Shown here piece by piece: positions 59,268 to 64,000 of a stretch of DNA of 64,000 bases. Every line of letters starts with the position of its first letter. Position 1 is the stretch's first letter. Under the pieces are notes generated by a model. That model was not told the DNA's origin. It made no database searches and saw only the letters and a program-made list of their open reading frames with translations. The position numbers and the translations under genes are program-made. This DNA comes from Bacteroidaceae bacterium (GTDB lineage Bacteria; Bacteroidota; Bacteroidia; Bacteroidales; Bacteroidaceae), in NCBI GenBank assembly GCA_017464815.1, contig JAFTYI010000027.1, forward strand, positions 19,232 to 83,231, in the 5' to 3' direction.

Positions 59268-62200
59268 TTAAAAGTTTACGTTCAGACTCATGGTGTAACT
59301 TCGCGGAGCCTTCAGGCCTATTTCACCTCCTGTCGGAGTACACGATTCGGGGTCTACCCCAAGGTCGTTCCGTGTCCATGTCAACAGGTTATTGGCCTGA
59401 ATGCGCAATCGCAGACTTTGCAGACTCAATTGCCGACAAATGCTCTGGGGGAAGTCGTAACCAAGCACAAGGTTACGCAACTTGATGTAGTCGGCAGGGA
59501 CAACATTGGCATCAATGTAGCGCGAGTTGCCCACCACATTCGTGGAACCGGCATAGCCATTGGCCGGGTGTTGGTTGCCTGCAGAAGTCCAATAGTTGAG
59601 GTAACTTCTGGGAACAGCCTCAATCTCGCTCAAGGAATTGTACCCATAGGGAGAGCCTTCGTAAGTCCAATCATCAACACGAGCACGCATCACATGGCCG
59701 CCATAGAAGGCGAACATGGCAGAGAGAGTAAAACCTTGCCACGACAACTGCGGAACAAGTGAAGCCGTCACTTTCGGGTCAAGCGAACCGCTATACACGG
59801 CATCAGCAGGGGTGAATTCTTCAGTGTTGATGTCGGCATAGTGAACCTTGTCATTCGCATCGTACCAGCCAAAGTACTGTATTCCATCTATCTCCTTCAT
59901 GCCGGCAAAGCGATAGGAGAAGAGGGAGTGCACGGGATAACCTTTGTGAAGAGTGTACACGGCTAAAGCCTCGGCTCCTGTGGCAATTTCGTGGTTGACG
60001 CTTGTCACTTCGTTGTGGTTGTATGCAATGTTGAAATCAACATTCAGCCCCAGCTGCTTGGTGTTGCCCGGACGTATGATTTCGCCATTCAATTGCAATT
60101 CAACGCCACGGTTTATCATCTTACCGTTATTGATTGTAAGCATCGACCATCCCGTAGTGGGGTCGAGGTCGGTGGTAGTGAGCAAGTCAGAGCCTGCCTT
60201 GCGATAGTAGTCCAAGGCTCCTGTTACCCTTCCACCAAACAGGGCGAAATCGGTTCCTATGTTAAACGAGGCCGTCTTTTCCCATCGCAACTGCTCGTTA
60301 GGCGGTGTGTCAAGTTGCGCCACACGCACACCATTCAGTTCGTTCACTCCGACTGTTGCCGTAAGATAGGAAGAGAAATCTTGAGCAATGTTACCGGTCA
60401 ATCCATAACTGGCACGCAGTTTCAGCGCATCAATCCATTCAATTCCCTTCATAAAAGACTCGTTATGCATATTCCATCCCGCACCTATCGACCACAAGGG
60501 ACGGCCTCGGAATTTAGGGTCGGCACCGAAGAGGTCGGCCTTATCTACCCGATAGGAGACGGATGCGGAATAGCGACTGTCGTACGTGTAGTTACCATTG
60601 AAATAGACGGAATAGAAACGATGGAGCACGTCACTCGTGGTGTAGTCAGCGCCAGTGGGTGCGCCAAACATGGAGTGGAAAGGGCCGAGTGCAGAAGTGC
60701 TGCCCTCCAAAGCCATCAATTGGCCGATATTGACCGTTCCCATGTTGTTGGTCTGAGATTGTTCATCGTACCCCATGAGAAGGGTATTATGGGAATTGAA
60801 CTGTGACTGGCGGAACTCAAATCCGGCAATCGCCTCAACCAAATGGCGTTGGGCAAACGTGCGGGTGAAATCGGTCTGGGCACGGAACGTGTAATAAGCA
60901 CCTTCACCTGTGCGGGTCGTCAGTTCACCACCATCAGGAAGATTGTGAGTTCCATCAGGTGAGGTATAAAGGTTGTAGAGGTGGCGCATGTCGTAACTTT
61001 CAGCCTCGCGGTAAGCGTTGCTTTTTTCATAAATATCCTCGTACTGGAACATACCGCCCACTGTCCAACCTTCCAAGAGTGTGGCTTTGGCATGTATAAA
61101 GGAGCGGATGTTGGTGTGACGACCATTCGTGAAATTGCGGTTCACTTCATCATTCAGGTTGTATGCCTCCGACTTCAAGCCATACGCATTGTTGAGCAAT
61201 GATGGCTCATTGAGCCAAGCTCCTGCTTCCATGCCAGCCAAACTGCCATCGGCATTGTACATCGACTGATAGGGAGCAAAGGAGTTGATGGAGTTCCATT
61301 CCGAGGAGATGTGGCGCTTAGAGCGCTGATTGACAACATTGGCTCCAAACTCCAAAGCCAACCATTCAGCAGGATTCATGTCACCACGATAGCTGAAGGT
61401 CAAGGTGCGGTCATGCTCTTTCACAACTCCCTGATTATCATTCTTGAAATTGATGACAAGGCTGGAATTGATGTATTTGCCCCGATTACGCAATGCAAGG
61501 TTATATTGCTGAATCACTTGCAGGCGCTCCCAGACATCTTGCCATTCTTTGCGATAGTCGTTACGCGAAAGCTGCTCCAACTGGCTATTGAGCGCTTCGG
61601 TTGTCAGTTGTCCCAACTCCTTGGCTGCCAACAAGCGCACAATGGAGCTAAGGGCATACGGGTTATCAGCGTAGTAGTTCTGAATGTTCTGCCAAGCTGA
61701 TTGTGAGGGGTTGTTTTTAACAAAATTGAAGTTATAACGCTCCAATTTGATAAGTTCTTCAGCATTGGCCCACTTCAGGTAGTCATAATCGTTTTTCTCC
61801 GAGATGGTGAGGTCGGCACTGAAGCCCACTTCCAGTTTGTCGCTTTTAGCCCGCTTGGTTGTGATGACAATGACTCCATTGGAAGCACGAGCACCATAAA
61901 TGCTGGCAGCTGCAGCATCTTTCAGCACAGTGATGTTCTCGATGTTGTAGGGATTGACACTCTCCAATCCGCCTTCAATGGGTAAGCCGTCGACTACCAC
62001 AAGCGGATTGGTGGTGGCATTGAACGAACCTGTGCCACGGATGGTTAATGCACTCTCGCCACCATCGTTGAAACCATTGTTGTAACGCACCAGCCCCGGC
62101 ACCATGCCTTCCAGGTTGGACACGACATCGCCCGTATAGCGTCTGTCGAGGTCTTGAGCTGAAATCAGCTGGTAGCTACCCGTTGCATTCTCGCGCTTGA

Positions 62201-62765
62201 TGTTTTGGTAACCGGTGACAATGATATCTTCCAACAGCTTGGTGTCAGCCTCCAGCTTCACATACACTTTCTTTGTCGTGCGCGAAGAGAGGCGTACCCT
62301 CTGAGTCTTCATTCCCACATAACTGATTTTCAATGTGGGCATACTCCCCTCCACCGTGAGGGAGAACATTCCCTCCAAATCTGTGATGACACCAGTGGAT
62401 GTGCCTTCAACTTGAACAGCAGCACCAGGAAGCGGTTCGTCATTCACATCGGTGACTACACCAATGATGATACGCTTGAAATAGGGACGATTGCCGGTCG
62501 CTTTTTTTAAGACAATTGCACCATTGACGATTTCATAGTCGAGTCCGGCTTCTTCATAAAAGATACGGTCAAGCAACTGTTCCAGTGTTGCTTTTCTGTA
62601 GCTACATGTAATAAGGGGGACATTTTCCAATGTCTCTTTCTTGTAGACAAATTGGAATCCGGTACGTTTGCGTAAGTCCTTAATAATTTGCTCTATCGTC
62701 TGCTCATTGTAGTCAATGTCGTACTCTTGCGCTGAAACGTTCAGACTGACAAAACAGAGACACAG
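59268..62765 (-). pseudogene. SusC/RagA TonB-dependent transporter, 5' end cut by an IS110 element
   Basis: The 3' part of a SusC gene with 1165 codons here. From the IS junction the frame reads LCLCFVSLNVSAQ, the end of a signal peptide. An STN domain follows (DIDYNEQTIEQIIKDLRKRT), then a carboxypeptidase-regulatory domain, a plug (NPLVVVDGLPIEGG; ASIYGARASNGVIVIT) and a barrel ending TMSLNVNF. No in-frame ATG remains; a TTG at 62630 would drop the signal peptide. Bases 63995-64000 beyond the IS restore codons GTC ATT in frame. It was intact until the insertion, so the locus is likely off in this cell. Confidence 0.88.
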
Positions 62766-62788
62766 AATGAACTGTGTTAAAAACCAAA

Positions 62789-63760
62789 TTAAATAGCATA
62801 AATTTCACTATACGCCTGATTATTTTTCACGATGGCAAAAATTTGCTTCAAAAGTTTGTTCGCAACCGCAATCATTGCCACTTTTACCGGTTTCCCTTTT
62901 TCACGTAGGCGTTCAAACAAATCCACGCACGCTTTATTGCATCTGATAGCCGAAATGGAGCACATATACAATAGTTTCCTTATCCAGCCCATTCCCATCT
63001 TACAGATATGTGCCTTCCCATGAACGGATTTCCCCGAGTCGTAAATTCTGGGGCATAGTCCGAAATAGGAACTCACCTGCTTGTAATTTTTGAATCCATG
63101 CATCCCTTTAGTCGCGGTAAGCAATGCTATGGCCGTTTTCTTTCCGACACCAGGAATGGAACTGATATTGTCAATGGCACGGCCGTCCTCTTGTCCGATA
63201 AGCGTTTCTAACTGCTTCTGTAGGTTTTCAATTCGTCTCTGCAACTGTCTGACGTGCTTACGCAGCGTGACAATCAGCGTGCTGTCATAAATGGGAGAAT
63301 GCAGGATGGCTTCAATCTGGTTCTCTGCCTGCTGGATATTCTGCTGGAACATTTCAATGCTACGGTACAGCTGCTGGATACGGATGTAGTTGCTGGGGGT
63401 GGGTTCCCATATTGTAATCTCCATTCTCCTTGCATATTCGACAAGCAGTCGGGCGTCAGCCTTGTCTGTCTTCGTACGGCACATGACTGCACGTGAGAAG
63501 TTCTTTACCGACAACGGATTCACGATTGAGACGGACACCCCCCGATCATAAAGGGCATATGCCAGTCTGAGGTGGTAAACACCTGTTGCTTCCATGACGC
63601 AAATACAGTCGTCTTGTACTTCTTTCAGAAACAGTCTGATTCCCTTTTCGTCGTATGAATAGCTGTCCTGAACACTCTTTTCATCTTCATTGAATGAAAA
63701 ACATGCATCAAATTTCTCTTTGGAGATGTCGATTCCAATAATTTTGCTTACCTTTGCCAT
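62789..63760 (-). CDS. IS110-family DEDD transposase (bridge recombinase)
   Basis: A 323-residue recombinase. The N-terminal RuvC-like DEDD domain has IIGIDISKEKFDA, VMEATGVYH and KTDKADARLLV. A coiled linker follows (about 130-190). The C-terminal Transposase_20 domain has ISSIPGVGKKTAIALL and YFGLCPRIYDSGKS, with a Ser as likely nucleophile. ATG 63760 (MAKVSKIIGID) is chosen; two extra codons would need TTG. In IS110 relatives this protein binds the bridge RNA to join donor and target DNA. It is read in the same direction as susC. Confidence 0.95.
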   Translation of the reverse strand: MAKVSKIIGIDISKEKFDACFSFNEDEKSVQDSYSYDEKGIRLFLKEVQDDCICVMEATGVYHLRLAYALYDRGVSVSIVNPLSVKNFSRAVMCRTKTDKADARLLVEYARRMEITIWEPTPSNYIRIQQLYRSIEMFQQNIQQAENQIEAILHSPIYDSTLIVTLRKHVRQLQRRIENLQKQLETLIGQEDGRAIDNISSIPGVGKKTAIALLTATKGMHGFKNYKQVSSYFGLCPRIYDSGKSVHGKAHICKMGMGWIRKLLYMCSISAIRCNKACVDLFERLREKGKPVKVAMIAVANKLLKQIFAIVKNNQAYSEIYAI

Positions 63761-63784
63761 TGACAATTATTTTTTTAAAGTTTC

Positions 63785-63980
63785 AGAAGACTCTTTGTGT
63801 GTTTCATCGATTCTACATACAGGCTCTAACGCCTAATGAACTGTTCGAAATCTACAAAGAGGGTAAAGGGGACTAACATTCTGAACGGTGTCGTATGCAC
63901 CAATGACAGTTAATAATCTTCGTCCTTTACCTCTTCTGTTTTCTTTGCGAAGATAGCGAAAAATTCGCTATCTTCGTTTT
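63785..63980 (-). ncRNA. Predicted IS110 bridge RNA with target and donor guide loops
   Basis: The minus strand upstream of the transposase folds as an IS110 bridge RNA. First is a 13-bp perfect hairpin (63948-63976). The target loop has stem AAGAGG..TAAAGG against CCTTTA..CCTCTT and top stem GGTG/CACC, with left guide AACTGTCATT (63902-63911) and right guide GTTCAG (63881-63886). The donor loop has GATT/AATC and AGGC/GCCT stems, with left guide ACAGTTCATT (63835-63844) and right guide GTATGTAG (63813-63820). ACAGTTCATT is identical to the right end of the element at 62766-62775. The RNA ends are approximate. Confidence 0.78.
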
Positions 63981-63985
63981 TTCTG

Positions 63986-63993
63986 CAAATATA
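63986..63993 (-). promoter_or_regulatory. -7 element at IS left end
   Basis: The minus strand reads TATATTTG at 63993-63986, a perfect TAnnTTTG. A -33 element in place would lie outside the window. In a circular IS the right end supplies TTTG (62785-62788) with a 20-base spacer. Confidence 0.7.
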
Positions 63994-64000
63994 GAATGAC

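Follow-up and report, generated by a model that had tools for sequence, protein, structure and literature searches.

A very likely IS110 bridge RNA in a Bacteroidaceae genome, with guides that fit a REP-like repeat and a core taken as AT

Bridge RNAs of the IS110 family are a known kind of guide RNA, and the closest described system is IS621. According to the passages of PMC11208158 on its core, IS621 has a CT core whose T is almost invariant and whose first base (C) is less conserved, and it tolerates an AT core; the promoter that is rebuilt in IS621 is described in the corresponding part of PMC11208160 as sigma70-like. The main sigma factor of Bacteroides is associated, in the relevant part of PMC7366714, with TAnnTTTG at -7 and TTTG near -33. 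Here we describe an element of the IS110 group in a 64,000-nucleotide stretch of a Bacteroidaceae genome (the whole stretch analysed, hereafter the window), which belongs to a draft assembly of 2.63 Mb in 58 contigs (G000). We consider it highly probable that this element carries a bridge RNA with guide loops in its left end, a promoter formed at the circle junction, a REP-like repeat as its target and an exchange of strands at AT. The features are listed in Table 1.

Table 1. Positions of the element, its predicted RNA and the neighboring features in the window.
Feature	Position	Strand	Remark
IS110-family element	62767..63995	-	1229 bp, counted with one AT core (the right one)
IS110 recombinase, 325 aa	62789..63766	-	DEDD_Tnp_IS110 and Transposase_20 (Pfam)
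Predicted bridge RNA, about 200 nt	63781..63980	-	Fold z -6.7; start inferred from promoter box
5' stem-loop of bridge RNA	63948..63976	-	
Left target guide AACTGTCAT	63903..63911	-	Follows left flanks among relatives
Right target guide CGTTCAGAAT	63878..63887	-	Exact complement of ATTCTGAACG
Left donor guide ACAGTTCAT	63836..63844	-	Equals right end 62767-62775
Right donor guide GTATGTAGAAT	63810..63820	-	Pairs with ATTCTA of left end
Right end (left donor) ACAGTTCAT, including AT core	62767..62775	-	
-7 box TATATTTG of putative Bacteroidota-type promoter, in left end	63986..63993	-	
-33 box TTTG, in right end	62785..62788	-	20 nt from -7 box after ends are joined
Left flank GTCAT, including left core	63996..64000	-	Contig and window end here
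Interrupted TonB-dependent receptor gene (SusC-like)	59268..62766	-	Pfam; frame closes across joined flanks

The recombinase starts at TTG, with an in-frame ATG two codons on. Both a RuvC-like DEDD domain and a Transposase_20 domain are present, as in the IS110 group, and in an alignment with IS621 the protein retains D, E, D, D and S, which we take to be the catalytic residues. It is homologous to the recombinases of IS621 (8wt6, E 2.1e-31) and ISCro4 (PDB 9t56, E 4.8e-30). The IS621-type design with a target and a donor loop, which the original prediction had proposed from the letters of the window, is supported. The nearest named relative, 95% identical in its recombinase, is in a Bacteroidaceae MAG from sheep rectum, and the left end is conserved among relatives with 67-95% recombinase identity. 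A protein search of 393 genomes of the order (E up to 1e-55) added five other recombinases at 35-40% identity, and 93 records of a plasmid collection held relatives, all below 60% identity. A truncated relative, G165 (L084/L074), has one core base of its left donor guide altered (TTCGTT) as well as the left end CATCC, and has probably decayed.

The 176-nt leader upstream of the recombinase folded with a minimum free energy of -45.6 (z -3.5), and the 200 nt from 63980, which include the 5' hairpin, reached -64.6 kcal/mol (z -6.7), with both loops folding as originally described. The strings quoted by the original prediction, AACTGTCATT, CGTTCAGAATG, ACAGTTCATT and GTATGTAGAAT, are all contained in the minus-strand leader at the places given for them, ACAGTTCATT being the complement of 62766-62775. 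With a covariance model built from six close leaders (R1), we scanned 393 genomes of the order and obtained matches in 6 genomes, the element's own included. The model matched directly upstream of all five more distant recombinases (35-40% identity): the leaders of G497, G538 and G703 were found in the genome scan, and those of G002 and G033, missed there, were matched by direct locus search at 41.8 and 48.1 bits. The match in G471 is a leader before a truncated gene, with only the first codons of an IS110-like gene, and that in G475 (L093) is partial, at 32 bits, with no recombinase identified; no leader was in view at loci L071, L073 and L087. Two-sided changes were seen in 31 of 43 pairs of a 12-row alignment, compared with 15.6 in shuffles, none of 500 reaching 31, and 95.6% of its cells pair, dropping to 36-46% in slid versions, although the rows were fitted to the model and thus lean to it, six of them having built it. 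We also compared 60001-64000 with Rfam (E up to 1), a kind of check that had been suggested, and obtained 0 matches. Read on the plus strand, the 5' stem-loop also resembles an outward terminator, a likeness that is no evidence alone as the scan found 2 terminator-like sites against 1.3 expected. Judged from its sequence, the leader is very likely an IS110 bridge RNA.

The ends of the element are common to 8 left-end contigs and 6 right-end sequences of the draft assembly, the window included, and its boundary was set from relatives, in which the two junctions carry different bases after CAT. From the coordinates, the left end measures 229 bp and the right end 22 bp, which agrees with the IS110 group, where a long left end upstream of the gene contains the RNA and the right end is short. 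All visible ends (8 left and 6 right, with the window's among the latter) stand at or next to contig ends, the pattern left when assemblers break on a multi-copy element. As base 64000 is the last base of its contig (C1), the left flank of the window copy lies outside the window and was therefore sought on other contigs; three left-end contigs (C46, C13 and C37) extend over the two target guides, with no difference from the window in that part.

We took the core to be AT from the junctions of relatives and because all four guides of the window element cover AT. With a slash marking the end of CAT, relative G123 reads GTCAT/TCTATA at its left and TTCAT/GCTGAG at its right junction, and G214 and G373 read TTCAT/CCTGAG at the right. 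The base after CAT in these three is T at the left junction and G or C at the right. The right-hand base finds a pairing partner both in the right target guide (GAATG, GCATG and GGATG) and across the hairpin of its own flank, and we read it as target-derived. On the same junctions we rejected a CT core, and with it the CATT or CT of the original prediction; a TT core was likewise rejected, as G123 has TG and G214 and G373 have TC at that place. The distant relative G538 has a left core GT together with a GT guide. When the target-repeat sites of whole genomes were inspected, the position following CAT was mixed in G373 and G227 among the matches listed; the case for the core is built on the flanks of the elements.

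The left donor guide agrees with the right end of the element at 9 of 9 bases, and the left target guide matches CTGTCAT. To gauge chance agreement, we used 2000 shuffled leaders, taking as target the consensus of the other copies and not the gene site. Matches anchored on the core arose in 17 shuffles for the left target guide, 0 for the right target guide, 1 for the left donor guide and 219 for the right donor guide, and neither the two target guides nor the two donor guides were matched together in any of the 2000. Without anchoring, the counts were 183, 1, 29 and 1200. By itself the left target guide is therefore weak, and the right donor guide weaker still; the claim that the donor guides match the element's own ends stands, most firmly on the left. 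For the target loop, the original prediction had named GTCATT as the match of the left guide: the last six bases of the window do read so on the minus strand, but with CATT the guide was ended one base too late.

We then compared guides and flanks among 12 elements in a fixed register, permuting the pairings. The left guides (11 elements) gave 56 matches compared with 37.8 in shuffled pairings, with 0 of 20000 as high, and the right guides (10 elements) 57 compared with 36.9, with 2 of 20000 as high; these counts are not strict probabilities because the elements share descent and we chose the registers manually, guided by the model alignment and the hairpin. Reduced sets of 9 left and 8 right elements, which omit G214, G227 and G165, gave 2 and 0 of 20000. 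In the full set, G214 lacks a full left flank and G165 and G471 a right flank, the row of G227 was assembled from two contigs and need not be one copy, and L093/G475 was left out; the left flank of G000 is the consensus of its repeat copies, and its gene copy on C46 would by eye score 4 of 7 instead of 5. The fit varies among elements: G703 and G033, whose targets are unlike the rest, still matched 7 of 7 left non-core bases, whereas the right target guide of G033 matched only 4 of 8 and G002 fitted poorly on both sides (3 of 7 left, 4 of 8 right). The core T is mismatched by the left guide of G703 and by the left donor guide of G033. The comparison shows, at the level of sequence, that the target-loop guides change with the flanks among relatives, as had been anticipated.

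As cognate target we identify a REP-like hairpin with the sequence GTCAT/TCTGAACG. In the draft assembly, GTCATTCTGARCG was found at 109 sites with up to 1 mismatch compared with 1 for the reversed control, and it occurs in inverted pairs within a larger MITE-like repeat, whose arms include GGTCAGTCCGAAAA and TTTTTGGACTGTCCC; 30 loci gave 11 distinct paired copies. Target repeats hold 12 of the 14 element ends (7 of 8 left-end contigs and 5 of 6 right ends). Apart from C46, six left flanks end in TCTCTGTCAT and that of C13 in TCTGTGTCAT; the long shared repeat arm is present on six left flanks, and C37 has only its last ten bases. On the other side, the right flanks on C10, C20 and C5 read TCTGAACG and those on C54 and C51 TCTGAGCG, the right target guide matching 10 of 10 bases in three of these five and 9 of 10 in the other two. 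REP sequences are characteristically extragenic and linked to a Y1 (RAYT) transposase, and the same assembly holds a weak Y1_Tnp match (C11:13136-13387, 27.5 bits with a cut-off of 23, in a 347-aa frame), which could be linked to REP-like repeats. Among the distant relatives, the right flank of G497 (L097) adjoins a hairpin repeat (GTCATTCCGTCC...GAGGAATCCCC), and repeat targeting may therefore be common in the clade.

The window copy itself stands in a gene. Contig C46 carries a FecR gene (Pfam) followed by ATGAGCAAAGTAAAATTCCTATTAGTCAT; the first codons of the interrupted TonB-dependent receptor gene lie on this contig behind the FecR gene, and joining C46 to the right flank in the window gives MSKVKFLLVILCLCFVSLNVSAQ, in frame with the TonB receptor. 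We infer that C46 is the partner of the window copy because of this reading frame and the FecR/TonB gene order. Elements of the IS110 group insert without duplicating the target site; here the joined flanks restore the frame without extra bases, but TCAT is present at both ends. The guides fit this place poorly: the left flank on C46 reads CCTATTAGTCATT, matching 6 of 9 bases of the left target guide, and the right flank, ATTCTG, matches 6 of 10, so that the gene site fits GTCAT plus TCTG only. The window copy would thus be a low-complementarity insertion in the signal-peptide region of the TonB receptor, breaking the gene. At 62738-62750, 16 bp past the insertion point, the interrupted gene contains GTCAGTCTGAACG, 1 mismatch from the repeat target, which may be coincidence.

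Joining the two ends would, by sequence, build a Bacteroidota-type promoter across the circle junction. The joined ends give TTTG-N20-TAnnTTTG in 9 of 10 elements, several of the nine being close relatives, and G033 lacks the circle promoter. In integrated left flanks, TTTG at 19-21 nt was seen in 0 of the 8 left-end contigs of G000, and at 17-23 nt in none of the 8 full flanks of other elements; shuffles of six right ends place TTTG there at 0.4-2.3%. A scan for sigma70-type promoters was uninformative, with 3 found and 2.5 expected. The junction boxes would put the start of the RNA just before the hairpin at 63948-63976, which would then be its 5' stem-loop. On the model that we propose, excision would close a circle whose junction is expected to read ACAGTTCAT/TCTATATTTG, bringing TTTG of the right end 20 nt upstream of TATATTTG of the left end. 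The joined promoter would switch on the bridge RNA and the recombinase, the RNA would pair both to the circle junction and to one arm of the REP-like hairpin, and the recombinase would exchange strands at AT.

Two other accounts of the leader were weighed against this bridge-RNA model. The leader lies directly upstream of the recombinase gene, and one of its hairpins is terminator-like on the opposite strand, if not beyond the chance count; it might accordingly be a structured untranslated region that regulates translation or transcription of the recombinase, the guide matches being remnants of targets and ends. We regard this as highly improbable, for the loops follow the flanks even in elements with unlike targets (G703, TTTATACA; G033, TGTTTCCAT) and the stems are retained by two-sided changes. 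The other account is that of the original prediction, in which the guides address the TonB-receptor gene with a core of CATT or CT and would fit an empty gene site AACTGTCATTCT. It can point to GTCATTCTG, which the gene site has in common with the repeat, and to the CT core of IS621. The AGTT that it placed beyond base 64000 is absent, however: the C46 flank reads ATTAGTCAT, without AACT. As the base after CAT also differs between the junctions of G123, G214 and G373 and pairs with the right target guide there, and as the guides fit the REP-like repeat rather than the interrupted gene, we find this account scarcely credible.

The draft assembly also contains two identical 77-bp palindromes, at C42:213724-213800 (L029) and C23:31574-31650 (L030). 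Counted from GTCAT, each is exactly bases 1-53 of the left end plus the reverse complement of bases 1-24, with no right end. They replace the inside of two target repeats, where 113 and 89 bp stand in intact ones, and in a comparison with 30 fetched loci their arms were about 95% identical to two different intact target repeats. Left-end-only fragments, probably decayed, are present at L019 (C56:25429-25470 of G000), beside part of the same repeat arm, and at L085 (C20:16441-16467 of G151). The palindromes are unlikely to be mobile miniature copies as they have no right end.

Perhaps the palindromes are deletion scars: two insertions facing each other may have been followed by loss of sequence through the left-end hairpin, or fold-back copying may have formed them. 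Our tentative account, possible but somewhat doubtful, starts from the two sites that face each other in the target repeat: the element would enter both arms (or fold back at the 5' stem-loop), and recombination through the 29-bp left-end hairpin would delete what lies between, leaving the 77 bp as a solo scar and possible two-way terminator. A double insertion was not seen, the opposite arm being free of insertion in 5 of 5 right flanks that lie in the repeat (slightly changed on C5), which would favor an independent repeat of greater age as the source of the element's left end. We think such an origin unlikely: the left end is conserved in the relatives with 67-95% recombinase identity, each palindrome consists of exactly two left-end pieces in place of the 113 and 89 bp, and a search of the 14 other genomes of the genus reported none in full length. 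If the scar account were true, an RNA-guided element would be rewriting a genome's repeat family, and confirmed scars would show how such elements remodel repeats.

While bridge RNAs of this kind are known, we recognised no paper on the element, its repeat or the palindromes in open-access full-text literature, which is no proof of absence. As far as this literature goes, the new aspects are the member itself and the target that it has, the combination of an AT core with a long right guide, a junction promoter of Bacteroidota type, and the palindromes. The element offers a worked bridge-RNA example related to gut Bacteroidales: its core is putatively a natural AT, its right target guide has 10 nt, the junction promoter boxes are of the host type, and the multi-copy target is clear. 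The 12-element set gives proposed, testable guide registers. As in the parts of PMC11208160 and PMC11208158 describing IS621, a DEDD plus serine recombinase is combined with a left-end RNA that has a 5' stem-loop and a target followed by a donor loop, the guides overlap on the core, the circle would rebuild a promoter and insertion is into REP sequences. In contrast to the CT core of IS621 (PMC11208158, same passages), the core here is taken as AT; the right target guide has 10 nt, compared with 4-7 nt in IS621 and more in some orthologues, and the boxes are Bacteroidota-type instead of sigma70-like and the target is a different one (sections of PMC11208160 on guides and promoter). Compared by eye with the IS621 handshake, the target-loop G can pair with the donor C, but the donor-loop C (63809, 3' of the right donor guide) cannot pair with the target C before the core. 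ISEc21, with the seekRNA of the IS110/IS1111 families, is similar in that an upstream non-coding region matches both target strands and a promoter forms at the circle junction; its site is in IS3-family genes and a 74-nt RNA has been found, as stated in the pertinent passages of PMC11187229, whereas the present element is known from sequence alone. IS110 copies in repeated palindromes are also described for ISPa11, ISPpu9 and ISPpu10, whose hosts are Pseudomonas and for which the passages on them in PMC1525189 contain no guide RNA. ISCro4, a sequence homologue, is likened here by its recombinase only. The IS1111 group, which has subterminal inverted repeats of 7-17 bp, carries its bridge RNA in the right end; in the present element the predicted RNA lies in the left end, and the right end has 22 bp.
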